NCBI RefSeq assembly: GCF_009797025.1
Contig: NZ_CP047027.1
Coordinates: 3,720,001-3,784,000 of the forward strand
Reading direction: 5' to 3'
Source: Cellulophaga sp. L1A9
Lineage (GTDB): Bacteria; Bacteroidota; Bacteroidia; Flavobacteriales; Flavobacteriaceae
Length of the DNA stretch: 64,000 nucleotides
How positions within the stretch are numbered: the stretch's first letter is position 1; every line of letters begins with the position of its first letter. Below, piece by piece: positions 3,701 through 35,859 of this stretch. The position numbers and the translations under genes are program-made. The notes beneath the pieces are model-generated. The model searched no databases, had not been told where the DNA came from, and saw nothing but the letters and a program-made list of their open reading frames with translations.

Positions 3701-6700
3701 CCAACCATTTACATCAAATTCATTCTTATATCCTGTAACGGCAGGAGGAGATTATATCTTTAGAGTAACAGATAATGAAGCTTGTATTGCGGTCTCTGAA
3801 CCTTTAGAGGTAGAAGATCCTGCAAATATTATAGCAACGCATACGGTTATTCCAGCAAGTTGTGGGGATCCAAATAGTGGAGGAGTACAAATTATTCCTG
3901 ATGCCACAAGTGGAATACCTCCATTTGAAATTGATTTTGGAAACACAGGAACATATACGTCTCAAACCGTATATACAGGATTAACTGCGGGAAGTACGTA
4001 TGATTATACCGTACGTGATGCAAGAGGTTGTGTTACTTTAGGAAACTCAGTAACCATTCCATCAGCAATTAGTGCTGCGCCAAATGCAACAGTAACGGCA
4101 ACTAATACTACTTGTAGCCCTGCTGGAGTTAGTTCAGGAACTATTGAAATTACAGGAGTGACCGATGGTACTCCAGAGTTTACCTATATTGTTTATAATA
4201 GTTTTGGTGTAGAAATTTTAAGAGTAGGACCAACAACAAGTACGGTGGAAACAATTTCGGATCCATTATTAGTTGCCGGAGATTACACGGTTAGAACCGT
4301 AGATGCTTTGGGCTGTAGTGATGTAGATGCGGTAACCATAGAACAATTAGATGTATCTGTGGTGCCCGATCCGGTTCCTGCTCCTGTATGTAATGTAGCA
4401 GGTTTTTCTAATACGGTAACAATTATTGGAGGAACAGGACCATTCTTAATCCGATTGGCTAGTGATACCGCTGCACCAGTTGCTCCAAATGTGCCTCCAA
4501 GGAGACATACATTTAACGGAATGCAATTTGGAGTTACCTATATTGTAGAAATTACAGATACAGCTACGGGATGTATTTATTTTGAAGAAATTCCTCCTAT
4601 CGCAGGACCAACACCTTTAGATATTGTAGCAACATCGCCTACGGCATTTTGTGATGATGCGGGTAATGGTAGAACAGAATTTACAGTAACCGAATTTACA
4701 GGACCTAATATTACGATAGATTTAATAGATCCATTGACAGATACTGTTTTACAAACAGATGCTCAAACAGGATTAACTGGTGGAGTAGGATCTTCATATT
4801 CTGGAGCTTTTGATATTGCGCCAGGCAGATATACCATACGGGTAACCGATGCTGATACGTGTACAGATGCCACGATTATAGATGTTATATTAAACATGCC
4901 TAATCTTGATATTGTTTCCAATATACCAGCAAACTGTAACGCTTTAGGTCAATTGACCGTGCGTGGTAGTGGCGGTGCGGGCGGACCTTATAGTTACGCA
5001 TTTGTACCTGCAGGAACTACACCGAATGCTGGTGATTATACTTCAGCTACTACAGCTGTATTACCAGGGAGTGAACTTGGTATCCCTTATGATATCTGGG
5101 TGATCGATTCTAGAGGATGTACGTTTAACGTATCCGAAGATATCATCTTATTACAACCACCATTACCAGCACCAATAGCAATTGTAAATAATCAGTGTGC
5201 AGCAACAGCTTCATCATTTAATATTACAGTGACTATGCCGGCAGCTACAGATGCACCAAACTTTACCTTAAATGGAGAAAGTCAGTTTGGCGTATTCAAT
5301 GCTACAGATAATGTATGGGAAGCACATTATACGGTAAATACGCCAGGTTCTTATCCTATTAGTGTTGTAGATGCTAATGGATGTACGGGTGTAGGAACTG
5401 CAGATGTTTATGAGTTCTTATCAGGAACAGGTGAGTTTACTGCTATACCATTATGTAATAATAACGACGGTACGATTGAAATAACAACCAATGGAGGTAG
5501 CGGTAATTTTACTTTTGAATTACAAGATGATCTTGGAAATCCTATTGGTAGCGTTCCAGTAAACGCAACAGGAATTTTTGTAAATCAAAGTCCAGGAGAA
5601 TATCGAGTGTTTATTACAGATGATATTGTTGGAGATGGTACCCGTTTGTGTACCACTTTAGTGCCTGTAAATTTAGATATCGCTATTCCTCCAATAATTG
5701 ATAGTCAATTTTCAGATGATATTAGTTGTAGTGGCGCTGATGATGGGAGTATTACCATTATTTTACAAGCAGGAACAGATGTAGACGGGCCTATTGATTA
5801 TATTTTAAGAAATACAGTTACAGCTGCGGAAGTTACTAGAAATAATTCTGGAGTTTTTAATGATCTTACTGATGGCACGTACCAAGTTGAGGTATTGACA
5901 GCACGTAATTGTAGTGTGCTTTCTAGTGTATTTACGATTGTTAATCCAGCTATATTTGAAATTTCAGCGACTAGCACACCTTTTACCTGTGAAATTGGAG
6001 CCAATCGTTTTAGCTCTTCCGAAATTACTGTAGTTATCGATCAAGTGGGTACTGTGGGTAGTGGGTATCAGTATAGTATTTCTGGGTATGAAAATTATCA
6101 AGATTCAAATATTTTTGAAATTATTGATAATGGATCACCACAAGTAATTACCGTGTATGCCATAGACGGTAACGGGTGTAGAGATGAATTTACGCTACCA
6201 GCGATAGCACCACCGTCTGAAGTGCAAAGTGTTTTGGCAGTACAGTCTCCTTTAAATTGTGAGGATCCTGAAACGGTAAGAATTACCATAACAGGTACTA
6301 CGGACTTTACGATAGAAACAACTTCGGCAGTAGCTGTAGCAGATGTTACAAACTCAGGAGGAAATCAATTTGTAGATATTAATTTACCTGCAGCTGGTGA
6401 GTACTTATTTGTAGTACGTGATAATGTTACCGGATGTTTATATCCAATGCCAAGACATGATGTGGTGGATCCAATAAATCCACTTGCAACAATTTCTGAA
6501 GCAAAACCAGTACAATGTTTCGGAGATTCTAATGGAGAACTATTCATTAGTGTCATAAACTATACAGGGGTATATGAGTATACAGTATATAGAAGTGACG
6601 ATTTAACACAGTCAACTCCGATTACAACAGGAACTTTTGATACGGCTAATTTCCCAGATGCTGTAACAGGCGAGGATGCACGTATTACTGGTTTACCAGG

Positions 6701-9272
6701 TGGAAATTTCTATGTAAGGGTTAGAGCATTAGATAATCCTAAATGTATTGATGATAGTAACGTTACTAATATTCGTACGCCTAATGGAACATTATTAGTT
6801 TCAACGGTTGAAATAGATAATGTAAGCTGTACTGATGATACTGGGAAAATCGTAGCAACAGGTGTTGGTGGATGGGATTCTTCTCCTTACAACTATAGAT
6901 TATTAAGAAAAGATGCAGCAGGAACTATAACTATTGGTTCAGATACTTATATTGAAGTAGTAGTCTATGGAACTGCAAATGAATTTACAGATTTACCTAG
7001 TGGTGATTATCGTGTAGAAATTGAAGATGTTGAATTGTGTTCTAACTTCTCTGAAATTACATTGGCACCTGTAGATCCTATTGTTGTAGGCATAAGAGAG
7101 CCGCAAGGTTTAGTTTGTCCAGATGGTAATGATGCTGTTTTGGAAGCTTATGATACCACCACAGGAGATAGTGTAACCGCTACGGCTGGTGCTAGCGGTG
7201 GGGTACCTGGAGCAGGCTATAAATACCAATTACTGTACTTGAATAGTGATGATAATACAGACGTACTTTCAAGAAGTGGTTTGCAAGATACCCCAACGTT
7301 TGATGGTGTTGGTGGCGGATTTATAAGTGAAGGTTGGTATGCAATAGAAGTTTCTTCTAGCTACGAATGTGTTGGTGTATCCATACCTTATTATGTAATA
7401 GCACCACCACCATTGGATCCTAAATTGGTTCAAGTTACCGCACCCGGTTGTGGTGGCGATGGTCAAATGAGGTTAAGTGTAGAAAACCCTCAAGCAGGAT
7501 TTACGTATGAATATCGTTCTATTGATGCCTTAGCAACAGATCCTTTTATTCCAATGTCAGGAACGTCTGTTCTAATTGATGGCGGTCAAGGTTTCTATCA
7601 ATATGATGTGCGTAAAGTTGGTGGAGCAGGAGCTTGTACAAGTTTACGATCTGAAGGAATTACTTTGGTAGATGCTCAGGCAATTGATTTAGTAGCAAAC
7701 TTACCAGATGATATTTCTTGTGCGACAGAAAATGATGGTAGAATAGAATCATTCTCTTCTGGAGGTGTGGGTAATGAAATGTATACTTTATACTTAGGAG
7801 ACCCAACGCCATTAGGATCACCATACACAGGGTTTAATCCTGATCCAGCGGCAACCGTAGTTAGAGCGGCACAAACCGATGGTACTTTTGAAGGCTTAGC
7901 AGATGGCACGTATTACATTGCTGTGGTAAGCGGACTTACCTGTTATGATGTTGAAGGACCATTAGTAATTAGAAGACCGGAAGCTATCGTCTATACTATT
8001 ACGACGACCAATGTATTGTGTAATGGGGATGATAACGGAACCATAACTGTTGAGGTAATTAGTGGTGGTGAAGGCTTATTACAATTTGCTATCAATCCTA
8101 ACTTTAATGAGTTCTTTAGTGATCCAGCAAACCCTGGAGTATATACTTTTGAGAATTTAGCAGCAGGATCTGATTATGAAATCTTAATTCAAGATACGCA
8201 AGGATGTGGTGAGTTAGTATTAGTATCACCAATTACGGAACCTGAGCAGTTAGCTATTTCAGATGTGGTAACACAACCAGAAATATGTTTAAATGCCTAT
8301 GATGGAGAAGCTAGATTAACTATCACAGGAGGTACGCCTTTTACAGATGCACTTACTTTTGCTCAGTATTATGAAACAAGAATAGAAGGTATAAATATTC
8401 CTTTACCAGACCCTGCAGATCCAACAGAAGGATTTGTGCGAAATGACGACTTGATATTCCCTAATTTACAAGGGGGAGAATCATACACTATATATGTTCG
8501 AGATTTCAATAACTGTACAACAGAGAGAGTCGTAAATGTTGGGCTGGGTGTTAATTTAGAATCAGAAGCTATCCCACAATACGGTTGTGAAGGTATTTTC
8601 CCGAACAGTACCGTCACTGTAGAAATGACAGATACGTCAATTGTATCAGAGTTGTTGTTCAGCTTAGATGTGAATGATATGACACTGGCTACAGGTACAA
8701 GAACCTTTGGAGATTTACCAGCAGGAGATCATACAGTATATATTTATCATAGCAATGGTTGTATGGACCAAGTGAGTTTTACTATTGATGAATATTTACC
8801 ATTAACCTTATCGGTTACGAAGACAGGTCCAGATGAAATTACAGCAATTGCCACTGGAGGTTATGGAAATTATGAATATTCTTTCCAAGGGCAAGCTCAG
8901 GGTGCAGACAATACATTTAATCTTATTGTAGATGCTACTGTAGATGTTCGGGTAGAAGATGAAAGAGGTTGTGTGGCTTTAGTGAAAATACCGTTTAACT
9001 TTGATTCTATGGTAGAATTCCCAAATTTCTTTACGCCAAACGGTGATGATAAAGGAGATACCTGGGCACCGTATAATCGTGAGTATTTTCCATACATTGA
9101 TGTGAAAATTTATGATAGATATGGTAGAGTAGTAGCGGTTCTTGATCAGGTCAAATCTTGGGACGGATTATACGAAGGCAATGAATTACCAACAGGAGAT
9201 TATTGGTATGTAGTCAATGCGAATGATGCTGATAAACAACAGTATGTAGGTCATTTTACTTTATACAGATAA
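705..9272 (+). CDS. Giant SprB-like surface adhesin with T9SS type B sorting domain
   Basis: This is a 2855-residue protein with a basic N-terminus and hydrophobic signal segment (about residues 9-27). Its N-terminal region (ETVTCTNDG, FNLCGDF) is of the kind seen on flavobacterial gliding-associated proteins. Most of the length is tandem beta-rich modules of about 80-100 residues, each with a glycine-rich strand, a Y-x-Y/F strand, 'L-x-x-G-x-Y-x-(V/I)-x-V-x-D' and a conserved cysteine (GC), as in SprB repeats. The last 80 residues (FPNFFTPNGDDKGD, KIYDRYGR, GxYWYVV) form a type B CTD. It should cross the outer membrane by T9SS and be held on the surface, possibly as a gliding or adhesion filament. 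No PorP/SprF gene is adjacent, unlike the other two adhesins here. The role is inferred from family features. Confidence 0.85.
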   Translation: MLSKKSRKSWYFLVLPVFFFVFSSILAETKIFNYIGEFSSDIVSSIEESFTKKEAQEQNQSQLNSEQTNNALAAAPFFATVVANADETVTCTNDGATLSRFNLCGDFDSRVIVLDQAYSSYNWERLTVGSCPSFNVDLQCPTYTCSTSWVSAGTSPTLTIDPSSVSAGTGAEFRVSVNGGAPYYIKVKKSTISQTYVKRDYICGVAGRIQVTNLSSAYEYAINDGSGFGAWQGAIFDDLIPGSYIVKARLKNTPNTCEYPYELIEIESKEIDIDVTVVDAQCFGENGSIAVQVNDVPGPYKYTLLDSSGFPQEFTSFIASDTYNFAAVGFGTYSVQVETQQCKADIANGIAAPRQDVDTSGNPIVIGDGLVALAASTEVNSSFGCANITSVDIIVRTSGGAAPYTYTVNGSAAVSPSYTGQTTYTVTAPGDYNFLITDSNGCTITASANVKELTPPVVSASGVDGTCTNGGAKINFNVTDAKGYNLSFRTQTTDPWVASTQISVLDDTYNNLEVRYEQGSFSCTMTLPSVTVTSDASITGTATKLGDQTCDGTGGTNEGSIQFGTASGGSGTVYEYSVDGVNFTTTQLFSNLAPGTYTPIIRDDTGCRLELTPIVIDQVDPPTNLDFIQSNINCGLGTTDLQLTPTSGVAITNYSIISPSTLDNGNSANFTGLSTTTTYTFRITDANGCIYTESFTPVVTSSIRARVKAGGDLKVCNGASDGSGAFIIDGFSTNYTYQINAEPVSALQSAAQVDISSRGAGTYTITVTDGDTGCTDTASVTVEESAAITLTPTVTAMSCANGNIGRVVANTTGGWGSYRYTLESPNGTTAGPTSNRTFGNLTQPSTPTTPYILSVEDAEGCTTTFEFQLTQLESPTISIASSSLCYEPVAGASATVAATGGGGSYEYRINNGTYQASPAFTNLTPGTHTFEVRDVNNCTDTIQLTINAQLRVSIAVETEIPCGGAPGEIRVNISNGYLSNASPKQYQVSADNGATFGAFQPFTSNSFLYPVTAGGDYIFRVTDNEACIAVSEPLEVEDPANIIATHTVIPASCGDPNSGGVQIIPDATSGIPPFEIDFGNTGTYTSQTVYTGLTAGSTYDYTVRDARGCVTLGNSVTIPSAISAAPNATVTATNTTCSPAGVSSGTIEITGVTDGTPEFTYIVYNSFGVEILRVGPTTSTVETISDPLLVAGDYTVRTVDALGCSDVDAVTIEQLDVSVVPDPVPAPVCNVAGFSNTVTIIGGTGPFLIRLASDTAAPVAPNVPPRRHTFNGMQFGVTYIVEITDTATGCIYFEEIPPIAGPTPLDIVATSPTAFCDDAGNGRTEFTVTEFTGPNITIDLIDPLTDTVLQTDAQTGLTGGVGSSYSGAFDIAPGRYTIRVTDADTCTDATIIDVILNMPNLDIVSNIPANCNALGQLTVRGSGGAGGPYSYAFVPAGTTPNAGDYTSATTAVLPGSELGIPYDIWVIDSRGCTFNVSEDIILLQPPLPAPIAIVNNQCAATASSFNITVTMPAATDAPNFTLNGESQFGVFNATDNVWEAHYTVNTPGSYPISVVDANGCTGVGTADVYEFLSGTGEFTAIPLCNNNDGTIEITTNGGSGNFTFELQDDLGNPIGSVPVNATGIFVNQSPGEYRVFITDDIVGDGTRLCTTLVPVNLDIAIPPIIDSQFSDDISCSGADDGSITIILQAGTDVDGPIDYILRNTVTAAEVTRNNSGVFNDLTDGTYQVEVLTARNCSVLSSVFTIVNPAIFEISATSTPFTCEIGANRFSSSEITVVIDQVGTVGSGYQYSISGYENYQDSNIFEIIDNGSPQVITVYAIDGNGCRDEFTLPAIAPPSEVQSVLAVQSPLNCEDPETVRITITGTTDFTIETTSAVAVADVTNSGGNQFVDINLPAAGEYLFVVRDNVTGCLYPMPRHDVVDPINPLATISEAKPVQCFGDSNGELFISVINYTGVYEYTVYRSDDLTQSTPITTGTFDTANFPDAVTGEDARITGLPGGNFYVRVRALDNPKCIDDSNVTNIRTPNGTLLVSTVEIDNVSCTDDTGKIVATGVGGWDSSPYNYRLLRKDAAGTITIGSDTYIEVVVYGTANEFTDLPSGDYRVEIEDVELCSNFSEITLAPVDPIVVGIREPQGLVCPDGNDAVLEAYDTTTGDSVTATAGASGGVPGAGYKYQLLYLNSDDNTDVLSRSGLQDTPTFDGVGGGFISEGWYAIEVSSSYECVGVSIPYYVIAPPPLDPKLVQVTAPGCGGDGQMRLSVENPQAGFTYEYRSIDALATDPFIPMSGTSVLIDGGQGFYQYDVRKVGGAGACTSLRSEGITLVDAQAIDLVANLPDDISCATENDGRIESFSSGGVGNEMYTLYLGDPTPLGSPYTGFNPDPAATVVRAAQTDGTFEGLADGTYYIAVVSGLTCYDVEGPLVIRRPEAIVYTITTTNVLCNGDDNGTITVEVISGGEGLLQFAINPNFNEFFSDPANPGVYTFENLAAGSDYEILIQDTQGCGELVLVSPITEPEQLAISDVVTQPEICLNAYDGEARLTITGGTPFTDALTFAQYYETRIEGINIPLPDPADPTEGFVRNDDLIFPNLQGGESYTIYVRDFNNCTTERVVNVGLGVNLESEAIPQYGCEGIFPNSTVTVEMTDTSIVSELLFSLDVNDMTLATGTRTFGDLPAGDHTVYIYHSNGCMDQVSFTIDEYLPLTLSVTKTGPDEITAIATGGYGNYEYSFQGQAQGADNTFNLIVDATVDVRVEDERGCVALVKIPFNFDSMVEFPNFFTPNGDDKGDTWAPYNREYFPYIDVKIYDRYGRVVAVLDQVKSWDGLYEGNELPTGDYWYVVNANDADKQQYVGHFTLYR

Positions 9273-9399: not shown

Positions 9400-9474
9400 C
9401 GGGGTGTAGCGTAGCCCGGTTATCGCGCCGCGTTTGGGACGCGGAGGTCGCAGGTTCGAATCCTGCCACCCCGA
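9400..9474 (+). tRNA. tRNA-Pro (UGG anticodon)
   Basis: A 75-base cloverleaf. The acceptor stem CGGGGTG pairs with CACCCCG (9467-9473), followed by discriminator A. The anticodon stem CCGCG/CGCGG encloses loop TTTGGGA with anticodon TGG at 9435-9437. The T-arm GCAGG/CCTGC has loop TTCGAAT. CCA is not encoded. A terminator follows directly. The last 17 bases recur, slightly diverged, at 20693-20709, which marks this gene as the likely integration site of the island downstream. Confidence 0.95.
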
Positions 9475-9547
9475 CAAAAAAGCTTCTGTGAAAACAGAGG
9501 CTTTTTGTCTTTTATACGGTCTCAGAATATTAGAAATGAGAAGCATA
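9458..9547 (+). repeat. Left direct repeat (attL-like) at the 3' end of tRNA-Pro
   Basis: About 90 bases starting in the tRNA T-loop and running through the terminator match 20693-20783. I count five substitutions and one single-base indel. This is the arrangement expected when an element integrates at a tRNA 3' end and restores the gene. The divergence suggests an old event. Confidence 0.75.
9476..9507 (+). terminator. Terminator of tRNA-Pro
   Basis: AAAAAGCTTCTGT, loop GAAA, ACAGAGGCTTTTT form a nearly perfect stem right after the tRNA. A second copy at the right repeat (about 20711-20742) is closer to perfect (ACAGAAGCTTTTTT). Confidence 0.85.
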
Positions 9548-9577
9548 GAAAAACTAGTAGCTATAGAAAGCAAGTAG

Positions 9578-10084
9578 TTTAGTATTCCCAGATTGCAGCT
9601 TATCAAAGACATGTTTGTTTTTAGCTGTTATACGGGACATTCTTATGGAGATGTAATGAATTTAACCAAGGATAATTTGTGTTTGGGAATAGATAGAAAA
9701 TAATTGATCTATTCTCAAAAGAAAAAGACGCGTGTTCCCATTAAAATTCCTTTACTTTCAAAAGCATTGCAGGTTATTGAGAAACACGAGTCATAACGTA
9801 TCCCAAATACAAAAGGCAGGTTATTTCAGACGATCTCTAATCAAAAGCTGAATTCCTATTTAAAGGAAATAGTGGATTTCACAGGAATAAATAAATACCT
9901 TACCTTTCATCTAGCGCAACATACTTTTGCGGCTACGGGTAGCTTAATTACTAGTGTACCAATAGAAACGGTATCTAAATTATTAGGGTATTCAAAAATT
10001 ACCACCACTTAGATTTATGCTAAAGTAATAGAAAGAAAAGTGAGCGAAGATATGCAGAAACTTAAGGAACGCTTTTTAGCTTAA
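9578..10084 (+). pseudogene. Tyrosine recombinase/integrase remnant (C-terminal catalytic domain)
   Basis: One reading frame spells the catalytic half of a Bacteroidota site-specific integrase: DMFVFSCYTGHSYGDV, IPLLSKALQVIEKH, NQKLNSYLKEI, LTFHLAQHTFA, PIETVSKLLGYSKITTT and a final ERKVSEDMQKLKERF. It is interrupted by stops at 9701-9703, 9794-9796 and 10010-10012 (TAG, probably once CAG before IYAKV). The catalytic HxxRH arginine is now Gln (HLAQH). The N-terminal SAM-like domain is missing. It is clearly non-functional and is presumably the enzyme that inserted the island into tRNA-Pro. Confidence 0.85.
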
Positions 10085-10602
10085 AAATAAGATTGTTAAA
10101 TCATTTAAGTTTTAATTCGTTTTTTTGTAGTCAAAGACATTAGTAAGCCAAGTGTATTCTATGAAATTTTTTTGAATTTTCACTGAAATTAATAGCGTTA
10201 ATTATTCTTTTAAAAAGGTTCATGTTTGTTTGATTTTAGTTATTAATTTGAAATAGTGTAAACGTAAAGGGAATGAATTAAAAAGAGTTTCTAGAGCAAA
10301 ATCAAACACAACCGGTAAAAAATATAGATTTATTTTAGAACTTACTCTTATACGATAAAATTATAAGTACAAGTTCTGTTGCAGCAGCTATCGGTAGCGA
10401 GTATTTAGTTGATTATCCTGATATTTGAAGCACTCAATTTTTTCGGATGATATTCCTAATCACGAAAAATTTCCTTTTAACGCAAACTGAAAGTAAAAAA
10501 TTGAATAGTTGTTTTTAGCAATTGCAAATGCTAAGCATATTGTCCGTTCAAGTAGCGCATTAATCATCATAAATTAAGTTTTTATTGATAATTTAAATTT
10601 AA
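10085..10602. other. Intergenic, no gene recognised
   Basis: The stretch is A+T-rich with only short open frames broken by stops. Nothing could be matched to a known family. It may be further decayed island sequence. Confidence 0.4.
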
Positions 10603-11070
10603 ATGAACATGAATATATTTTCTTACATATTGGCTTTATTTACTTCCGTAGGGGCTATGACTATGTTTAGCTTAATAATGAGTGTTATTTCAAACTGTGA
10701 ATTTAGAGAGAATATTTTGCTTTCTAAATTAATGAGTGGCCATTCTCTGAATGAAAAAGAAAGTCTAAAGTATGTAATTTTAGGCTGGTTAGCACATTTT
10801 TTTTTGGGAGGATTCTTTTTAGTGATTTATACTTATTTGTGGTATAATACAGCGTTATTGCAACATGCATTAGGTTCTATTTTATTTGGCATTATTATCG
10901 GTATACTAGGAATATTAGGTTGGACTATGCTTTTTAAAATGGCATCTAATCCTCCGCAAATCAATTATAAAATATATTATATTCAACTCATTGTGGCTCA
11001 CATACATTTTAGTTTGGGTAATTTTCTAATTTTTTCTCTGTTGGGTTATGAGCCGTCTATGCTATTTTAA
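10603..11070 (+). CDS. Small integral membrane protein, unknown function
   Basis: This 155-residue protein has four predicted membrane segments (about residues 5-28, 58-82, 88-115 and 128-148) and few charged residues. The second segment contains WLAHFFLGG and the last contains AHIHFSLGN, so histidines lie in or next to the membrane. I do not recognise the family. It stands alone between the integrase remnant and the IS3 element, with no partner gene. The first ATG (10603) was taken; the second ATG two codons later is an equal alternative. Confidence 0.6.
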   Translation: MNMNIFSYILALFTSVGAMTMFSLIMSVISNCEFRENILLSKLMSGHSLNEKESLKYVILGWLAHFFLGGFFLVIYTYLWYNTALLQHALGSILFGIIIGILGILGWTMLFKMASNPPQINYKIYYIQLIVAHIHFSLGNFLIFSLLGYEPSMLF

Positions 11071-11402
11071 AGCAAAAAAGTCAAATAATTTAAAAAAATT
11101 AAGGTCATATTCTAACATAATGCATTACACGGTCACTGTAAGTCCAATTGAATTATATATTTTAGATCATTTACTTTTTTCAGAGTCCTTTGATTACCTT
11201 TTTTAGTCGACTTTCTTTCTGGATTTGAAGATAGAAAAGGGTTATAAATAGGAATGCAGGACAATCCGTTTTATGTGCCCGCTAATTTTAAATACTGGTC
11301 TTTTACTATCAAAAAGGGAAGGGACTCAAAGAAGACTAAGCGACAAGTTATTGAAATGCAAAACGTATAAAGTTCACTAAAAAGTTGATTGAGCGAATAG
11401 TT
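11071..11402. other. Intergenic between the membrane protein and the IS3 element
   Basis: No gene or clear hairpin is visible. The sequence is A+T-rich and crossed by stops in all frames. Confidence 0.4.
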
Positions 11403-11459
11403 TAGCCCCTAATAAGTTCGGAGTGATCTTTTAAATTTCAAACTTAATATATTTGAGAT

Positions 11460-11771
11460 ATGAAATACAAGAAATGGACCTTAGATCAGAAGTTAGAAAT
11501 TCTCTCTATTTCAGAAGAGATCGGCATCATAGAAGCCTGTCGTAAATACGGAGTTAGTACAGGTACTTTTTATAGTTGGAAGACGAAACATGAGAGTCAA
11601 GGAGAAGCAGGCTTAAAAGTCATCTATGATACTAAAAGTAAAGAACACAAGCAGGCAGAAGAAGAAAACCGAATACTACGTAAGCTTCTAACCAATAAGG
11701 AAATTGAATTAGAAGTACAACGAGAACTTTTAAAAAAAAAGTTTGGAACGTCCGATCCAAGAAAGATTTAG
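11460..11771 (+). CDS. IS3-family transposase OrfA (helix-turn-helix subunit)
   Basis: 103 residues. The N-terminal helix-turn-helix (about 5-50: WTLDQKLEILS, EACRKYGVSTGTFYSWK) binds the element ends. A heptad leucine stretch (about 68-95) should mediate pairing with OrfB. In this family orfA and orfB are normally joined by -1 frameshifting near the end of orfA. An A-rich run at about 11731-11739 could be the slip site. The frame closes with TAG then TGA. Confidence 0.85.
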   Translation: MKYKKWTLDQKLEILSISEEIGIIEACRKYGVSTGTFYSWKTKHESQGEAGLKVIYDTKSKEHKQAEEENRILRKLLTNKEIELEVQRELLKKKFGTSDPRKI

Positions 11772-11774
11772 TGA

Positions 11775-12664
11775 ACTGTTTATAGCAAGCATAAAATTAG
11801 TAAAACCAACATAATTAATATGGTAGGGATGGTTCATAGTAGCTATTACCGTACTCCAAGTTTTGGTAAAAAGGGTAATACTCCTAGTAAACTCACCTAT
11901 CATAAATCTAGAGGTTGGGTTAATCAAGACGCTCTTATTGCTTCTATAAAGAGATTTTAAGTCATGAATTTATAGATTGTGGTTACCGATTAATGACTTC
12001 TTACTTAAAAAAAGAAGCATACCTGATTAATCATAAAAAGCTCTACAGAATTATGAAAGAACAGGGAATGCTAAAACTAGAGAATCGGATAAACAGGAGT
12101 GGTTCTGGGCGTAAATTTGTAAAATTCAGAAAAGTAAATACCTCAAGACCAATGGAATGTTTAGAGATGGATATAAAGATGGTATGGATTCCTAATGTGG
12201 GTAAAAACGCTTATTTATTATCCATCATAGACGTACATACTCGTAGAATATTAAAAGACTATTTTTCTTTTTCTATTAAACAGGATAAGGTGATAGCGTT
12301 TTTATCAGAGTTGTTTGCAGAATACCAATACCCTGATAACGTTGTTATTAGAAGTGACAACGGTAGTCAGTTTATTGCAAATAATGTACGTGAATATCTT
12401 GGACTAATTGGGGTTCAGCAAGAATTTGCACATATAGCCACACCAGAAGAAAATGCGCATATAGAAGCCTATCATGGAATACTAAAAAAAGAAATTTTTA
12501 AAAGAGTGGATTACACATGTTTTGGGCAAATTGAACAAATCTTAAAAAGGTATGTGACTTTTTACAACAATACTAGGTTACATGGGCTCTTAGGGCGTAT
12601 TACACCAATGGAAAAATGGAACGCTGATAAACACCTAATTCTAATGAAAAAAATAACAGCTTAA
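11775..12664 (+). pseudogene. IS3-family transposase OrfB (integrase core), N-terminal frameshift
   Basis: From 11775 one frame reads orfB-like sequence (NMVGMVHSSYYRTPSFGKK, LTYHKSRGWVNQDALIASIK) until a stop at 11958-11960. The match then continues one frame over (KEILSHEF, DCGYRLMTSYLKKEA) into an open stretch from 11993 to 12664. A single-base loss near 11950 explains this. The DDE core is intact: D in LEMDIKMVWI, D in RSDNGSQF and E in ENAHIEAYH. The open part alone (223 residues) lacks the N-terminal helices, so the enzyme is probably dead. Confidence 0.8.
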
Positions 12665-12709
12665 GCTATAATCGAAATTTAAAAGATTACTCTTGTTTTA
12701 TAGGGGTCA

Positions 12710-13146
12710 AAACAAGTGGTTGGATTGTATAAGGGTTAAATTCTACTAATAATTTGATTAGGCGAACGTAAGTCAAAAAGAACTTTCAAAAAAATCAACT
12801 TTAATTACTTTATGGCTTTTGTTCAAGACTACTAAACGCCGCATTTTTCCGGAAAAGTAATGTAAGGAAATGGGGTAAATTTACTAGATAATGACCGCGT
12901 AATCAGGATTTAATAGCTAACTATTTTTGGTAAAAGAGAGGGGTTAATTCTTTAATTTACCGTAAAAGTGTGTCATTTTATTGAGGTTTCAAGCTGATTT
13001 GGCTTAAATTAAAAGGAATAACTAGGGTTAAAAACACTTGAAAAACTGTATTTCAATAAGTTAAAATTTTGTTACATCCCACTGCGTGTCACCTTCTTGC
13101 CATTCGTTACCAGGATTAATTCAGGCTTTTAGTGAATGAATAATAT
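12710..13146. other. Intergenic, nothing recognised
   Basis: No open frame of useful length and no clear hairpin before 13147. It separates the IS3 element from the end of the T9SS cassette. Confidence 0.4.
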
Positions 13147-13178
13147 AAAAGAGCCACTTGTTATCAGGTGGCTCTTTT
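13147..13178 (-). terminator. Terminator of the island T9SS operon
   Basis: AAAAGAGCCACTTG (13147-13160), loop TTAT, CAGGTGGCTCTTTT (13165-13178), with one G-T wobble. It lies 22 bases beyond the stop of the PorE-like gene. The A/T flanks would make it bidirectional. Confidence 0.9.
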
Positions 13179-13200
13179 ACTATTGTATTTGTTAAAGAAT

Positions 13201-15141
13201 TTATTTATCTATCACTATAAACTCTGATCGTCTATTTTCCTGGTGCATTACCTCAGAACAATCTACACCATTAATACAATCATTGAGTAAATTAGACTCT
13301 CCAAATCCATTACTCTTTATCCTCTCTGCTTTTATCCCATTAAGTGTTAAATAAGATTTTGTAGCGTCGGCTCTTTTTTCAGAGAGTTTTTGATTGAATT
13401 TCTCACCTCCACGGGAATCAGAATAAGATTTCACCTGAATATTTAAATCTGGATATAAATTTAAATATTCTACTATTTCATTCAATTTTTCTTCTTGATC
13501 TTTACGTATATTCCATTTATTATAATCAAAGTATAAATTATCTAGCTGCAATAGTTTAAATAAATCATTACCTACAATTGCTTTTTCAATAGGTACAGAG
13601 TTTAGCTTTATGATTAAGTTTAGTTCTTTATCTGTTGGTTTTACTGTAATTGAAGTTGTATCATTTACAAATTCTTCTTTTTTTGTAATTAATTTATAGT
13701 TCCCTTCTTTTAAGGGTAAACTAAAATTGAAGTCTCCATTAACACTTGACACAGTGCTTTTTATTTTCTCATTATTTAAATCAACCAAATCTACATTAAC
13801 AGAAGTAATAATTGAATCTAAATGTTCATGCTTCACAATACCATTAATAATTTTAGTCCTAATTAATTCAAGTCTTTTTGACTGTGTAAAACTATAAATA
13901 TCATCACCTCCTTTACCCCCCTCACGATTAGATGAGAAAAATCCTTTTTGATTATTTATTATAAATCCAAAATCATCAGAAGGACCATTTATTGGTTTAC
14001 CTACATTTTGAACATAAAAATCATTAGATATATTTAGCTTAGTCACAAATACGTCTAAGCCTCCCAAACCTGGGTGCCCATCCGAAGCAAAATACATAAC
14101 ATTATCATCTGTTATAAATGGGAATGTTTCTCTACTCTCTGTGTTAATTGAAGGTCCTAAATTTACCGGAGTACCAAAACTACCTTCAGCCCCAATACTT
14201 ACAACAAAAATATCAGATAACCCTAAAGAACCAGGCATGTCTGATACAAAATATAGTTTTGATTCATCTGAACTCAAAGCTGGGTGAGCAGCAGAATAAT
14301 CATCTCCATTAAAGGGTAACTCTTTAATATTTGTCCATTCATTATTTACAAGATTAGCAGAATAGATTTTAAGTCTACTAACTCCATCTTCATCTCTTTT
14401 AAAATTTTTCTTGTCAAAATTATTTCTTGTAAAGTAGATAGTTTTACCATCTTTAGTGAAAACAGAAGAAGTCTCTTCAGATTTCGAATTTAATAACTTT
14501 GAAAACAATTCTGAATTTGTAAAATCGCCATCGTCAGACTTATCTGTGGCTATATATAAATCATTAAAAGATCCGTTATCCCATAAATGAATATTTTTTT
14601 TAACTAAACCTGTATCCCTCGCTGAAGAAAAAATTAATTTTTCACCATAATAAGAAGGTGAAAAATCTTCGTAACTGCTATTAATAGCACTATTTTTAAT
14701 TGTAAATCTACCTGAATTATTATCTATGTCATTTAAATAATTTGGCTGTGCTTTAAGTAAATTTGCTCGATTATCAGATTTACTTAAATCTAAAAAAGTC
14801 TGTAACCACTTATTAGCCTCATCAAGCTCGCCAGTACTTTTTAAAGTTTGAGCATATTTATAAAAATAAGTTATATCAAAAGATTCATTTGGTAATGAAA
14901 GTTGCTTTCCATACCATTCTGAAGCTCTACCATACTCACCTAAATTATAATATGCATCTCCTAAATTCTTATAAGCATCATAAGAACTATAGTTTTTTGA
15001 AATTAGATATTCATATGCTTCTATTGCATTTTCAAATGCATAGTTATCAAATTGAATTTCTGCTTTTTTTTCAATTTTAGTTTGGCCTTTAAGATATCCA
15101 AACGCAAATAATATATATATAAATATGTAGTTGTATTTCAT
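13201..15141 (-). CDS. PorE-like OmpA-family protein (TPR, beta-propeller, OmpA)
   Basis: 646 residues with a signal peptide (about 1-19). TPR-like helices follow (about 25-125: NLGDAYYNLGEYGRASEWY), then a PD40/WD40-like propeller (about 150-425, with FSSARDTG, YFTRNN, YFVSDMPGSLGLSDIF, YFASDGHPGLGGLDVF). A carboxypeptidase-regulatory-like domain (about 435-515) and a C-terminal OmpA peptidoglycan-binding domain (about 540-646: DSRG, LSEKRA, NRRSEF) complete it. The order matches PorE of the T9SS, which ties the outer-membrane complex to peptidoglycan. It is last in an operon, 12 bases after porP/sprF. The paralogue at 35860 has the same architecture. Confidence 0.85.
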   Translation of the reverse strand: MKYNYIFIYILFAFGYLKGQTKIEKKAEIQFDNYAFENAIEAYEYLISKNYSSYDAYKNLGDAYYNLGEYGRASEWYGKQLSLPNESFDITYFYKYAQTLKSTGELDEANKWLQTFLDLSKSDNRANLLKAQPNYLNDIDNNSGRFTIKNSAINSSYEDFSPSYYGEKLIFSSARDTGLVKKNIHLWDNGSFNDLYIATDKSDDGDFTNSELFSKLLNSKSEETSSVFTKDGKTIYFTRNNFDKKNFKRDEDGVSRLKIYSANLVNNEWTNIKELPFNGDDYSAAHPALSSDESKLYFVSDMPGSLGLSDIFVVSIGAEGSFGTPVNLGPSINTESRETFPFITDDNVMYFASDGHPGLGGLDVFVTKLNISNDFYVQNVGKPINGPSDDFGFIINNQKGFFSSNREGGKGGDDIYSFTQSKRLELIRTKIINGIVKHEHLDSIITSVNVDLVDLNNEKIKSTVSSVNGDFNFSLPLKEGNYKLITKKEEFVNDTTSITVKPTDKELNLIIKLNSVPIEKAIVGNDLFKLLQLDNLYFDYNKWNIRKDQEEKLNEIVEYLNLYPDLNIQVKSYSDSRGGEKFNQKLSEKRADATKSYLTLNGIKAERIKSNGFGESNLLNDCINGVDCSEVMHQENRRSEFIVIDK

Positions 15142-15153
15142 TTTTTTTGGGTT

Positions 15154-16092
15154 TTAGAAAAATCTAGATGTTTTAACTTTTTTAAATTTTGATATTAATT
15201 CATAACGTAAAAAAACTTCGAAAGAACCATCATTAAAGCTAGTGTTGCCTAAGTTAGTTATTTCTTTATCATATGCTAAACCTAACATAAACTGATCAGA
15301 AACTTGAAAGCCAAACAGGCCACTTAAAGCAGCATCCCATCTATATGCCGCACCTAATACAAACTTATCATTAAACATAAAATTAGCTGATACATCTATT
15401 TGTAAAGGAGCTCCATTTACAGCTTTTATAAGGGTTGATGGTTTAAATTTTAAATTAGGATTTAAATTAAATACATATCCAGAAATTAGATATAAATTAA
15501 TTCTCTCTTCAGCAGTGAAAGAATCTACATTACCTGAATTATCAAAATGTTGTGTTTTTAAAAAATTAGGTGCAGATAATCCAAGATAGAATTTGTCTGT
15601 ATGATAATATACACCAGCTCCAAAATTTGGAGAGAAATTTTTATCTACAGTTTCTTCACCACCTAGGTTTAAATCAGGCCTATATGATTGTAATTTATTC
15701 AAATCTATATTTAAAAAATGGCCTCCAGCTTTTAATCCTAAAGAAAGCTTGCCTTTATCAGAAACAGGTATTGTATAAGAAAATGTAGCATCAAAAGTTG
15801 TTTCTTGATTGGTACCATTTCCTATTTGATCATTTACAATGGATAAGCCAAGACCTACTCTTCTTCCAACTGGTGAATGAATATTAAATGTTTGAGTAAC
15901 AGGCGCTCCATCAAGTCCAACCCATTGTGACCTATGCAATGCCCCTATACTTAATACGCCTCTTGCCCCTGTATAAGCAGGGTTAACAGCTAAAGTATTA
16001 TACATATATTGAGTATATTGAGCGTCTTGTTGTGCTTTTATTTCGGTAATAACACTTAATATAATTAGTGTTAATAATATATATTTTTTCAT
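15154..16092 (-). CDS. PorP/SprF family T9SS outer-membrane protein
   Basis: 312 residues with a signal peptide (about 1-20). The hallmark N-terminal block QDAQYTQYMYNTLAVNPAYT comes next, then RSQWVGLDGAPVTQTFN, LSIVNDQIGNGTN and FGAGVYYH, typical of the 14-strand PorP/SprF barrel. SprF-type proteins are needed for secretion or surface attachment of type B CTD proteins. This copy sits 21 bases after one such gene and 12 bases before the PorE-like gene, so it is probably the dedicated partner of the 1232-residue adhesin. It is strikingly similar to the copy at 34901. Confidence 0.9.
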   Translation of the reverse strand: MKKYILLTLIILSVITEIKAQQDAQYTQYMYNTLAVNPAYTGARGVLSIGALHRSQWVGLDGAPVTQTFNIHSPVGRRVGLGLSIVNDQIGNGTNQETTFDATFSYTIPVSDKGKLSLGLKAGGHFLNIDLNKLQSYRPDLNLGGEETVDKNFSPNFGAGVYYHTDKFYLGLSAPNFLKTQHFDNSGNVDSFTAEERINLYLISGYVFNLNPNLKFKPSTLIKAVNGAPLQIDVSANFMFNDKFVLGAAYRWDAALSGLFGFQVSDQFMLGLAYDKEITNLGNTSFNDGSFEVFLRYELISKFKKVKTSRFF

Positions 16093-16113
16093 AATTTTAG
16101 AAATATGTTTTGT

Positions 16114-19100
16114 TTATCTAACAATGTATAAAAAGCCAGATTTTGTTTTTGAGGTTTCTCCATCAACATATTTTAGAATGTAAAAATATACGCCTGATGG
16201 TAGTTGATCTTCTTGATTTACAGTAGCTCTTGCGTTTGAAATACCTCTAAAATCATTAGTTCCATTTTGATATGAACTGTTTTCAAAAACAACTACACCC
16301 CAACGGTTGTAGACTTGGAAATTATTATCTGGATAATTCTCAATGTTTATAATTCTAAAGAAACCTTCATCTATTTGTGGCCCTACAGTCTCATTGTCTA
16401 TAATTATAGTGTCTTCAGCCAATTCTTCTAAAGATGACTGTCTATAATCAACATCTCCTCCTGACACTTGTGTATCTGGTAAAGTCGACGGATCTTCTAT
16501 TTCATCATTAACATCAAAACCATCATTAACATCAGTACCTTCAAAGCCATCGTCTAAACCATCACCATCGGTATCAATATTGGTAACAGAACCTCTATTT
16601 GCTTCAATAATGTCTGATAGTCCATCATTATCTGCATCAGCGTCTAAATAATCTAATATACCATCATCATCTGTGTCAATTAGCATAAGTGCATCTAAGT
16701 AAGCCAAGTCAATCCCTTCTAAATTAACAGCTTCAGTAGGAGCTATATAATTGAATGTCTCTTGAGCTTCTATATTATCTGGAATACCATCATTATCAGC
16801 ATCAATGTCTAAATGATTTGGAATACTATCGTCATCAGTATCCGTTGGATCTGTTAATGGGTTATTGTCACCATCAATATTGGCATCCTCAACAGTATCT
16901 AAAATTCCGTCATTATCATCATCTAAGTCTATTGTATTAGGAACATTATCACCGTCAGTATCAAGTCTGTCATCTGTTGCGTCTAAATAGTCTGGTGTAC
17001 CATCGCCATCAGTATCGTCATTTGTTGGATCACCATCACTATCGGTATCTTCATCTGATGTATTTATTGTGTCAGCATCATCGTCTAAATCTCTATAATT
17101 AACATCTTCTGTTTCATCAGTATCTGGTAAATCATTCAAGGGATCATTGATCTCATCATTTACATCAAAACCATCATTAATATTTGATCCTTCAAAACCA
17201 TCATCTAAACCATCTCCATCAGTATCTACTCCTGTGTAAGTTTGATCTGGAATACCATCAAAATTAAAGTCGTTTCCTTCATTACTATCTGGAACCGAAT
17301 CGTTGTCAGAATCTAGATCAATATAATCAGGGTTATCCTCGCTGTCATGATTATTAGGTATTATACCTCCAAGGTAGGCGCTATTTATTCCGCTGTTAGA
17401 AGCATAGGTGTTTTCTGTATCATTATTTGGTGAAATATAACCTAGAGTAGTTTGTGCTTCAATATTATCAGGAATACCATCATCATCTGAATCTATGTCC
17501 AAACGGTCTTTTTTGCCATCCAAATCAAAATCTTTATCTGCTAATGGGTTTGTTTCTATATTATCAGCAACTCCATTATTATTTATATCTACCATTGTTG
17601 AGGCATCTCCTAAAGTTGGATAATCAACTCTACCATCACCATCAGTATCAACACCACCTGCTTCGGTAATATCTAAGATACCATCGTTATCAGAATCAAT
17701 ATCTAAATGATTTTGGAGACCATCACCGTCAGTATCTAATGTTGTTTCATCTGTGTCTAAAATACCATCATTGTCATCATCCAAATCAATATCATCTTCA
17801 ATGCCATCATTATCACTATCATTACCCACTAGTATTGACGCTGACGGGTTATCCTGAGTATAATTACTATCTATCTGATCTTGTGTGTTATAAACAGTGT
17901 TGGTTAAAATGTTAGAGCTATTATTAGCTGGCAATGCATTGACAGTTGCCGTAATTAATATTGATTGTATTTCTCCCGCTGACATAGTACCAACTGCCCA
18001 ATTTGGACTAATCCAAGTTCCTTTGCTTGGTGCCCCGTCAACTAATGTTAAGCCTGTGGGTAATGAATCTTCAAGATTAAGATTGGTAACATTATCTATA
18101 CCAAGGCTTTCTACTGTAATTGTAAAAGTTACCACATCTCCTTCTTCTACGCTCTGTTGGTCAACCGTTTTGGTAATAACCAATTCTGGCTCACAATAAT
18201 ATATACTGAATGAATTCGAGGTAAAGGCGCAACCACCAGAGGTTACTTCTACATAAACTTCTCCAATGGCTGTAGGTGTATAACTCTGTAAAGTAGCTCC
18301 AATAACTGGTTGATCATTATGATACCATTGATAAGTATCAAATATAGCAGATAATGTTATAGTATTACCTAAACACAAGTCCTCAGTGCTTTCTTTAATT
18401 TCAACAACAGGGACGGTATCAAAGCCAGAAAAATAAGATGCAGTGCCAATAGCTCCATTAAATCCTACATATCCGACTGAAATTGGCCCAGATGATGCAA
18501 CTTTGACATCACCGATTAGATTAGGTACATAAAAAGTTTTCCAATCTGTATTCCCCAAAACAGTTTTAGAAGTAGGTAAGGTTACTACACCATTATTATC
18601 AGTTACAATGATATTGGCATCTGGAGTTGACGTAGATGCCAAAAGTGTAATGCCTCCTGTAACTGTAACATTTGGTAATTGATTTATATTCGCAATATTA
18701 TCCACAATCTGGGGCATTAAGCAATTTACAGGAGAAATAAAATTCATCCCTAGGTTAGGATACCCATCGTCACCTGCAGTTAATTGATAGGCATAGGCGT
18801 TTTTAGAAGTTCTTACGTACATATTATCTCCAGCTACATTACCTGAATAATTAGATCCATCAATGGCGATATATTCTCCTTTATTCAATGTAGCAAAAGG
18901 GGTAGTGCCTTCATTAACAAATACTCTGGTTCTATTTTCTGTTGCAATAACTACGGGAAATTCTAATGCATCACTACCATTCCCACGCATAAAAACATAT
19001 TCCCTACCCAACCTATCAATTGGTACTGACTGGTCCATACCTGCATCTTGGTTATTAACATCTTGAATCAAACCTACCATAAGGTTTCCATTGCTCAATG

Positions 19101-19812
19101 CTATGTTTTTATCTGATACAATACTTGCGCCAATAGTACCAAATCTATTATCTGGATTGCCTGACGAGGGAGCCTCTAAGACAAAAGTTTCATTTGCATT
19201 TAAAGTTATTGTAATAGAATCATCAGTAATACCATCTATATCTGTACCTAAACGAAAAGTACAATCGGTATCATAATCAGATATTACAACAGTTGTATTA
19301 TCTTCTGTGGCCATAATACCCATTGTTATATTGTGATTACTATTACGAGTGCTAGTATCTACATTAGGTATAGCCCCCCATTTAAAATTGGTACCTAAAG
19401 CTGTTCTTCCTTTACTAGTTAAGGATTCTCCCTGTGAAGTTGAATTTCCTCTAAAACTCACATAAAATTCTTGACCTCCAATAGATTGCAATTTAAGTCC
19501 ACTATTTTGTAATACAATACCCGTATTACTTTCAGAAACCATGGTTATATCATTACTATTACCGGGTAAATTGTACTTGTAGGGAGTAGCATTTGATACT
19601 GTTATTGTTGTTATTGGGGTAGGGTTTATTCCTCTATAAATTTCAATATCAAAGGGATCTGTCTCTGGAGTGGATATAAATAATGCTTGGGATGTAAATA
19701 TTGCCGTATTGTCTGATAATTTTAGTGGAGGCAAATAATGAAGGTCACTTAATTGGGCATTTGACCAATTAGTAATGCAGAGGAAAATCAAAAAAAAGTA
19801 TATTTTTTTCAT
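16114..19812 (-). CDS. IgGFc-binding/DUF11/thrombospondin-3 surface protein with type B CTD
   Basis: 1232 residues with a signal peptide (about 1-19). Residues about 140-470 resemble the IgGFc-binding N-terminal domain ([40 protein letters not shown]). An immunoglobulin-like segment and a DUF11 domain (about 545-640: [16 protein letters not shown]) follow. A long run of Ca-binding thrombospondin type 3 repeats (about 670-1120) is rich in DxDxDG and DDDNDGI. The C-terminus ([34 protein letters not shown]) is a type B CTD. It should be a T9SS-exported, calcium-stiffened surface stalk. It leads the three-gene operon on the island, so horizontal acquisition is likely. Confidence 0.85.
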
Positions 19813-20692
19813 ATTTTTAGGTTTAAAAGATTTAGTGTTGTAGATTATATCTACGTAATTTTATTGTAATATGGATTTTATACATAATTTAAAAATTTGT
19901 AAAAATCATTTCGAAAGTAAAATTATATTAAAAAATAATTGTGTACTACAATTTTCGTTAAAAAGGGTTAATATTGGTTAAAATCAATGAAAATGCGGGA
20001 GGCTAGCAGGGTAATAATTTACTTTTGAAGCTGATTTTTTTGGTTTCTCTTTGAAGAATATTATACTATTCCAATAAAGTTAATTTGTGTTATATAGTAT
20101 TTAATTTATTTTTTATAGGTATTTGAATTACATTAGGGAAAGTATTAGTGCCATTTTGTAGGCTTCCCTATAAATAGGAAAGTTCATAATTCGATTTTAC
20201 AATCACTTCATAACATTCTTTGACCGCTAACTAATTAAATTACTACTAAAACTTCTACTACTACAATGAATAGTATATTTGTTGTAGTTGCATCGATTAT
20301 ATTTTGTAGATATTATTTTTTAATGAGGAATTTAAATAACTTATTATTAATTTCAATAGTTTTGGTATACATTTAGTTTACTTAGGCGAACTATACCACA
20401 ACATATTCTATAAATGCCTACTATTTATTTTATTCTCTACACAACGGTTAGCAAATGAATGAGGTAGCTTATGTACGGTTGCCCATGAATTAGAATTTGC
20501 ATCATTTATTGCTTTTCTAAATAAATGATAGTATGTTTAATTTAGACTATAATAATCTATCTTTATAGCAATAAAGAGGAATATAATTTGTTTATAAATA
20601 GTTTGATTTGACTTTAATGTTCAATTAGGTAAATAATACAAAATTAAAAGTGTTTAAAAATATTGTTAATTAGGTGTTTGTTATTTATTTTA
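19813..20692. other. Long A+T-rich intergenic at the right end of the island
   Basis: No coding potential is apparent over 880 bases. It should contain the promoter of the minus-strand T9SS operon. A weak candidate on the minus strand is TACTTTCG (19911-19918 in plus coordinates), one mismatch from TAnnTTTG. Otherwise nothing could be assigned. Confidence 0.4.
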
Positions 20693-20783
20693 GAATCCTC
20701 CCACCCCGAGAAAAAAGCTTCTGTGAAAACAGAAGCTTTTTTGTCTTTTATACGGTTTCAGAATATTAGAAATGAGAAACATA
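20693..20783 (+). repeat. Right direct repeat (attR-like) with tRNA-Pro 3' fragment and terminator
   Basis: GAATCCTCCCACCCCGA reproduces the last 17 bases of tRNA-Pro with one change. A copy of the tRNA terminator and about 40 further bases that match 9508-9547 follow. There is no acceptor 5' half or anticodon arm, so it is not a tRNA gene. It marks the distal boundary of the island. Confidence 0.75.
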
Positions 20784-34887: not shown

Positions 34888-34900
34888 TACAACGAATGTC

Positions 34901-35857: not shown

Positions 35858-35859
35858 GT

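Follow-up and report, generated by a model that had tools for sequence, protein, structure and literature searches.

Gliding flavobacteria carry many paralogous operons for T9SS adhesins, and we know of no settled account of how their variety came about. In Cellulophaga sp. L1A9, one such operon lies between two direct repeats beside a tRNA-Pro gene, which raises the question of whether it came from elsewhere and, if so, on what vehicle. We analyzed 64,000 nucleotides around this gene (here called the window), part of a complete 5.07-Mb chromosome (G000), and compared them with 17 other genomes of the genus (18 in total). The original prediction, made from the letters of the DNA, described the interval as a tRNA-Pro genomic island with a T9SS surface-protein module as its main cargo.

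The tRNA-Pro(UGG) gene, the integration target, was located with ARAGORN at 9400 to 9475 on the plus strand, and all 76 of its bases are identical in the loci of G001, G014, and G017. An attL-like repeat (9455 to 9547, plus strand) starts inside this gene and covers the tRNA 3' end, the terminator, and approximately 40 bp further; its attR-like partner lies at 20690 to 20783 (plus strand). The 90-bp repeat claimed for the tRNA 3' end and terminator is therefore real, with 93 aligned bases, 87 of them identical, and one 1-base gap, and its start within the tRNA gene marks an insertion at the tRNA 3' end. The tRNA terminator hairpin falls within the repeat, as would be expected if the pair were a chance match or a common terminator repeat and there were no island at all. 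However, a whole-genome search of the complete genome returned only two full copies; the remaining two matches were a 34-bp inverted terminator match within the right copy and a 23-bp stretch at the genome's other tRNA-Pro gene. The local alignment score of the pair (75) also lay far above the scores of 200 shuffled pairs (at most 15.5) and of comparisons with windows drawn at random from that sequence (up to 600 windows; at most 16.5), and in other genomes copies of the tRNA end come after the same right end. The repeat is not scattered through the genome, and the copy number and scores rule out a chance or scattered terminator repeat, leaving that explanation virtually no probability.

Between the repeats, on the minus strand, lies the operon that had been predicted, consisting of a CTD adhesin, a PorP/SprF protein, and a PorE-like OmpA protein. 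The T9SS-secreted adhesin (16114 to 19812) combines an IgGFc_binding head, DUF11, a stalk of aspartate-rich repeats (recognized by eye), and a CHU_C signal, which scored 73 bits against PF13585 (cut-off, 27). With the models for the two signal types, it reached 22.8 bits for type B (TIGR04131; cut-off, 35) and 25.3 bits for type A (TIGR04183; cut-off, 23). The PorP/SprF outer-membrane partner (15154 to 16092) follows directly downstream, with 315 bits to PF11751 and 282 bits to TIGR03519 (cut-off, 91). The third gene (13201 to 15141) encodes an OmpA-type protein with TPR, PD40 propeller, CarboxypepD_reg, and OmpA domains in the same order as in PorE. We call it PorE-like only, because it scored 318 bits against an NCBIfam PorE cut-off of 600 and showed no lipobox cysteine by eye at the end of its signal peptide; its best NCBIfam model was CHU_0125 (406 bits; cut-off, 620). 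The L1A9 genome contains 14 PorP/SprF genes, and a paralogous operon with the same gene order lies within the window at 27181 to 37821. As a sign of foreign origin, GC content and codon usage gave a weak signal: GC3 was lower in the cargo PorP (0.134) and OmpA (0.165) genes than in the paralogous operon (0.241 and 0.239), but the GC content of the interval was not clearly deviant.

Among the 17 other genomes, only G004 held a full-length match to the operon, with 88% protein identity for the adhesin and 98% for PorP. The best PorP in the other 16 genomes reached at most 74% in protein and, among those compared, at most 73% in DNA. At the DNA level, the cargo PorP gene was 98.4% identical to that of G004, compared with 78% between the PorP of the paralogous operon and its G004 counterpart, which was assigned by tree rather than by synteny. 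Synonymous distances between G000 and G004 were 0.040 for PorP and 0.063 for OmpA versus 1.4 to 2.4 for six core genes (TPR, LytTR, two histidine kinases, FIST, and a transporter), values that are imprecise near saturation and were not computable for a seventh core gene. We compared 76 PorP sequences chosen from the genome matches, leaving out partial copies and most matches below approximately 58% identity. As a horizontal origin would predict, the cargo PorP paired with that of the distant species G004 alone (SH-aLRT of 97 in a quick tree without bootstrap). The PorP of the paralogous operon served as a control: it was 97% identical in protein to that of G013 and followed the species order in the tree.

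The two copies of the operon also occupy different sites. The G004 copy has a TPR gene on one side and STAS and LytTR genes on the other, a site that was unoccupied in all seven genomes checked, where the TPR gene adjoins the STAS or LytTR gene without the operon. Could the operon nevertheless be ancestral and lost in the relatives, with nothing having moved? The genus has many adhesin operons of this kind, as the 76 PorP sequences attest, and since no near relative holds this one, repeated loss could account for its distribution. However, the synonymous distances for PorP and OmpA (0.04 and 0.06) and for core genes come from the same pair of genomes, and the differing, elsewhere unoccupied sites speak against loss as well. 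Together with the PorP tree, they rule out vertical inheritance followed by loss, which we regard as most improbable. From these comparisons, transfer of the operon between species is clear, so that operons of this kind move as modules, which bears out the suggestion that surface modules are swapped.

Searches of wider collections gave little indication of a carrier. With the cargo PorP as the query, tblastn found nine plasmid records and one phage record, all below 40% identity, and thus no recent carrier in those collections. In a protein search with candidates limited to 8,000, the 120 listed of 7,604 matches included one cluster at 98% (two members), the others being at most 75% identical. 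Beside the G004 copy itself, we saw no integrase, IS, or tRNA-Pro gene (ORFs of at least 90 amino acids by eye over 38 kb, and ARAGORN); the nearest tRNA gene, for tRNA-Arg, is approximately 9 kb away. This lack of element marks suggests that the operon can also move and settle without a tRNA-Pro element.

How, then, did it come to lie beside tRNA-Pro in L1A9? We used a TPR gene found in 15 of the 18 genomes as a gauge of kinship; its DNA identity to G000 was 89% in G013, the nearest relative, 77% in G005 and G016, and 72% in G004. Both genes flanking the interval are common to four relatives (G005, G016, G013, and G001), and in all three of the complete intervals with both flanks (G005, G013, and G001) the operon is absent. 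In G005, 2.1 kb separate the tRNA from the exchanger gene; the region of the integrase remnant and 155-amino-acid ORF (window positions 9400 to 11395) is present at 90% identity and is followed by the right flank, without the operon. The same distance is 5.1 kb in G013, with a transposase gene and glycosyltransferase-like genes (by eye), and approximately 0.97 kb in G001. In G016, a contig break interrupts the interval; on its tRNA side is the start of another integrase (by eye), and beyond it come a right end, a copy of the tRNA end, the integrase remnant also seen in G005, and finally the right flank. No match above 74% to the cargo PorP was found anywhere in the G016 genome. The operon is missing from every complete interval, but each holds other sequence between the tRNA and the exchanger gene, and none is a clean empty site.

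The integrase pseudogene predicted just inside the tRNA end was confirmed at 9542 to 10081 (plus strand). It is a C-terminal part of a tyrosine integrase, approximately 180 of 403 residues (about residues 222 to 401), with four in-frame stops; intact relatives lie at 7681 to 8892 in locus L143 and 363 to 1568 in locus L214. There is no functional integrase next to the tRNA, and because the one present is partial and carries four stops, the interval is a remnant rather than a working element. N-terminally truncated remnants with shared stops lie at the same tRNA locus in G005 and G016, both without the operon, and those of G000, G005, and G016 have a common truncation and at least two common stop-codon sites. 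Since these remnants share their truncation and stops, the integrase was probably already dead when the operon came in; the exception would be a later loss of the operon from the line of G005 and G016. The same dead copy in relatives without the operon makes the pseudogene unlikely as the operon's vehicle. Farther to the right is an ORF of 155 amino acids (10603 to 11070, plus strand), a membrane protein by eye with no match in Pfam or NCBIfam, whose region is 91 to 100% identical in 150-bp bins in G005 and G016. No conjugation or mobilization genes were seen among the ORFs of at least 50 amino acids in the interval, six of which were searched against Pfam and NCBIfam.

The middle of the interval points to more than one element. 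In locus L214, positions 1819 to 2403 are a conserved stretch downstream of intact integrases, and pieces of it lie in the window on both sides of an IS3-family insertion sequence with OrfA and a split OrfB (11398 to 12714, plus strand). The left piece (11167 to 11397, plus strand) is a copy of this post-integrase leader of tRNA-Pro elements, 84% identical to L214 1819 to 2052. The right piece (12712 to 13108, plus strand), approximately 90 bp from the operon, is a second, diverged copy, 69% identical to L214 1998 to 2403. The two overlap over 54 bp of the conserved stretch and are only 70% alike there, so that two different element copies meet at the IS3. The IS3 has inverted ends and seven full copies in the genome, four of them with target duplications of 5 to 6 bp; its split OrfB scored 152 bits versus an NCBIfam IS3 cut-off of 160. 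The copy in the window has the genes and inverted ends of the family but no target duplication, which fits rearrangement. As judged from these pieces, the interval is at least two element copies joined at the IS3 and not one element. Because leader sequence also lies to the right of the IS3, the operon is placed between the leader and the right end of one element family.

That right end is a recurring structure. At 20519 to 20690 (plus strand) lies a conserved end of tRNA-Pro elements, approximately 170 bp long, with seven further occurrences across the 18 genomes at 82 to 86% identity: contigs C16 and C19 of G004; C6, C13, C14, and C16 of G016; and C2 of G017. Two of the seven are partial, at contig starts, and three further matches were short and weak. 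A copy of the tRNA-Pro 3' end comes directly after the right end on C6 and C16 of G016 and C16 of G004. On C13 and C14 of G016, the contig start holds a 139-bp match to the right end and, after it, an intact integrase of 401 amino acids, 88% identical to a G014 integrase located approximately 200 bp from tRNA-Pro. On C19 of G004 and C2 of G017, the right end is preceded by a small ORF and by another tyrosine recombinase, which is XerC/D-like. In the window, a second remnant, which matches the last 79 residues of this recombinase and contains stops, lies at 20300 to 20524 (minus strand), beyond a 48-bp sequence (20153 to 20200) that is probably an IS-end remnant and has matches of 44 to 48 bp at five other places in the genome and near several contig starts of G016. 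Among 40 integrase matches listed, at least four besides the G000 and G005 remnants lie within 250 bp of a copy of tRNA-Pro(UGG): two in G014 and one each in G017 (a gene with one stop) and G009 (a partial match). The ends of the interval in the window are common to elements with an intact integrase, and in one draft genome (G016) related elements probably stand in tandem. By eye, the listed ORFs of the related element loci L143, L210, L211, L214, and L215 included no T9SS operon.

We propose that the interval is a layered remnant of integrative elements targeted to tRNA-Pro(UGG). A first element would have left its dead integrase beside the tRNA. A second would have brought the operon as cargo, its leader (12712 to 13108) and right end (20300 to 20783) surviving on either side, and later IS3 activity may have joined both elements and deleted the integrase of the second. 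Delivery of the operon by a tRNA-Pro element is likely from its position, and we give the layered account as a whole, with the operon as cargo of the second element, a probability of roughly 0.6. With a dead integrase and a right end in decay, any carrier would be old. What stands of the island prediction is a tRNA-Pro island in which a horizontally acquired operon, absent from relatives, lies within element-derived borders; a single element with the pseudogene as its vehicle does not.

The pattern of identity between G000 and G004 bears directly on this proposal. In 150-bp bins, a recently shared block covering the stalk, T9SS signal, PorP, and nearly all of OmpA (13260 to 17820, minus strand) is approximately 93 to 99% identical to G004, with a drop close to the OmpA stop. 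For the adhesin head, identity is 69 to 85%, except in one patch at 93 to 100% (19014 to 19463, minus strand), and the signal peptides and promoter regions of the two copies differ. Judged by the bins, the part that runs from the stalk through the T9SS signal and shuttle to the anchor has been shared recently, and the head has a different past. Either the head was replaced after transfer of the whole, or the shared part was inserted beneath a head that was already in place. Neither head is close to another compared paralogue. When the G004 head was compared by DNA in seven segments, three resembled a G017 paralogue more than G000, among them the signal peptide of 19 codons; another three were closer to G000, and the remaining one was equally close to both. 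Identity that ends inside genes on both sides looks like recombination, not insertion of a whole element.

It is possible, then, that the operon was acquired horizontally with the tRNA-Pro element as a bystander, entering an old element graveyard by homologous recombination (through transformation or transduction) or beside the IS3. High identity to G004 stops within genes (the adhesin N terminus and OmpA C terminus), no marks of an element are visible at the G004 copy, and the IS3 without target duplication is 0.5 kb from the operon. The neighborhood recombines as well. In the SprB-type gene to the left of the tRNA (705 to 9272), dS per 300 codons ranges from 0.22 to 0.73 for G005, from 0.12 to 0.85 for G016, and from 0.49 to 0.86 for the sister G013. 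The distances to G005 and to G016 each fall below that to G013 in 9 of 10 segments, the reverse of core genes, which marks cross-species recombination; the exchanger gene on the right follows the species order. Even the dead stretch at 9476 to 11276, 85 to 100% identical per bin to G005 or G016, was apparently exchanged as a remnant, because it is more alike than the synonymous sites of core genes. Elsewhere in G000, near 385 to 406 kb, the DNA identity of other PorP genes to G005 or G016 reaches 95%, compared with approximately 86% for the vertical PorP and 91% to the sister. By these measures, the island operon is not alone: several sequences have been exchanged between species. However, the leader at 12712 to 13108, to the right of the IS3, and the right end come from one element family, and the operon is thus enclosed by element parts rather than next to them. 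We consider acquisition with the element as a bystander the less likely reading, at clearly lower odds than the layered remnant.

If we return to delivery by a tRNA-Pro element, complemented by recombination, a broader picture can be drawn. T9SS operons for adhesin, shuttle, and anchor could be plug-in surface cassettes that circulate among Cellulophaga species, in some cases carried by tRNA-Pro elements and in others moved by recombination. Stalk, export signal, shuttle, and anchor would make up a constant chassis, and the variable head would be the part exchanged, since it, unlike the chassis parts, does not have to fit the others. We offer this tentatively, at somewhat less than even odds. 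A secreted adhesin gains a cell little when the shuttle that fits it is missing, and if for this reason the operon is the unit of exchange, a single event is enough to alter the surface repertoire. The pattern of a constant chassis and variable head also predicts which parts must coevolve.

Comparison with known systems separates what is familiar here from what is new. Flavobacterium johnsoniae has five operons of a type B substrate, SprF-like shuttle, and PorE homologue, including Fjoh_3952-3950, according to the available part of PMC12618676. In the portions of the literature considered here, export of the type B substrates tested depends on the cognate PorP/SprF shuttle, and the PorE homologue is presumed to fasten the complex to the cell wall (PMC12618676, PMC9143113). 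As far as that account extends, the Cellulophaga operon agrees in gene order and partner families, with the shuttle directly downstream of the substrate and the PorE-like gene next (PMC12618676). By analogy, it would work in the same way, with its own shuttle for export and the PorE-like protein as a putative cell-wall anchor. The three genes may travel as a unit because an adhesin without its shuttle may not reach the surface. If the dependence seen in F. johnsoniae holds, and assuming that the host provides the T9SS core, the operon would be the smallest unit that gives a new host a new surface adhesin. Porphyromonas gingivalis offers three corresponding proteins in PG1035-PorP-PorE, in which, in the available sections of PMC9143113, an outer-membrane barrel links a surface protein to a peptidoglycan-binding periplasmic protein. 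There, PorE is a lipoprotein (PMC9143113), whereas the window protein has no lipobox cysteine by eye.

The mobile setting has its own parallels. The 10K island of Riemerella anatipestifer, as presented in the accessible portion of PMC6764341, similarly joins a tRNA gene (tRNA-Arg), a tyrosine integrase, and a 53-bp repeat ending in a terminator-like hairpin (by eye). Its integrase works, unlike the dead one in the window, and T9SS occurs once in that paper, within a reference title (PMC6764341). Surface proteins of P. gingivalis, in the abstract of PMC5266723, are likewise mosaic and depart from the strain phylogeny. That exchange takes place within one species and, by the same abstract, does not involve shuttle-plus-anchor operons moving between sites (PMC5266723). 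By title and opening of the abstract, we found no description, among the open-license papers listed, of a T9SS adhesin operon as the cargo of an island or element, nor is one given in the available parts of PMC12635249, PMC5524665, PMC5714932, and PMC5395568. Mobility of the F. johnsoniae operons is not mentioned in the available text of PMC12618676, and the word "horizontal" is absent from its main text. For the Cellulophaga operon, passage between species and a position within an island are both documented here. The type of operon is already known from F. johnsoniae; its mobility is the new part.

A gene for an SprB-type T9SS protein of 2,855 amino acids (705-9272) adjoins the tRNA-Pro gene. 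Its synonymous sites are nearer to those of G005 and G016, two genomes from the Cellulophaga baltica side of the genus, than to those of the sister species; this holds for 9 of 10 segments with each of the two genomes and suggests that the gene was replaced through recombination. To the right of the tRNA, the dead remnant DNA (9476-11276) of strain L1A9 is 85 to 100% identical per bin to that of the same two genomes, although core genes compared between L1A9 and these genomes have dS values of about 1 to 2. This stretch seems to have passed between species already as a remnant.

Related tRNA-Pro elements with an intact integrase were found in G016 (L214 and L215, on contigs C13 and C14), where they probably form a tandem array. 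Two integrases lie about 18 kb apart on C14. By eye, the cargo of these elements includes genes for an ABC transporter, a peptidase, and a surface lipoprotein-like protein. The recombinase gene that marks the right end in related elements adjoins one for a small cysteine-containing protein (L211, 2487-2837; L210, 9902-10249), which has no Pfam family.

The genome has seven full copies of the IS3 element, 99% alike, one of them at 11398-12714; four of the seven have target duplications of 5 to 6 bp. A 48-bp sequence (20153-20200), probably an IS end, is matched five more times elsewhere in the L1A9 genome, and in G016 it has matches close to the starts of several contigs. Split transposase ORFs (62434-63476) are, by eye, presumably IS110-like.

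A second adhesin-PorP/SprF-OmpA operon (27181-37821) has the same gene order as the island operon; its PorP agrees with the species order and served as a control. Within another genome of the genus (G015), three PorP genes (L120, L129, and L233) are mutually 97 to 99.5% identical, which indicates that adhesin operons there were recently duplicated or underwent conversion.
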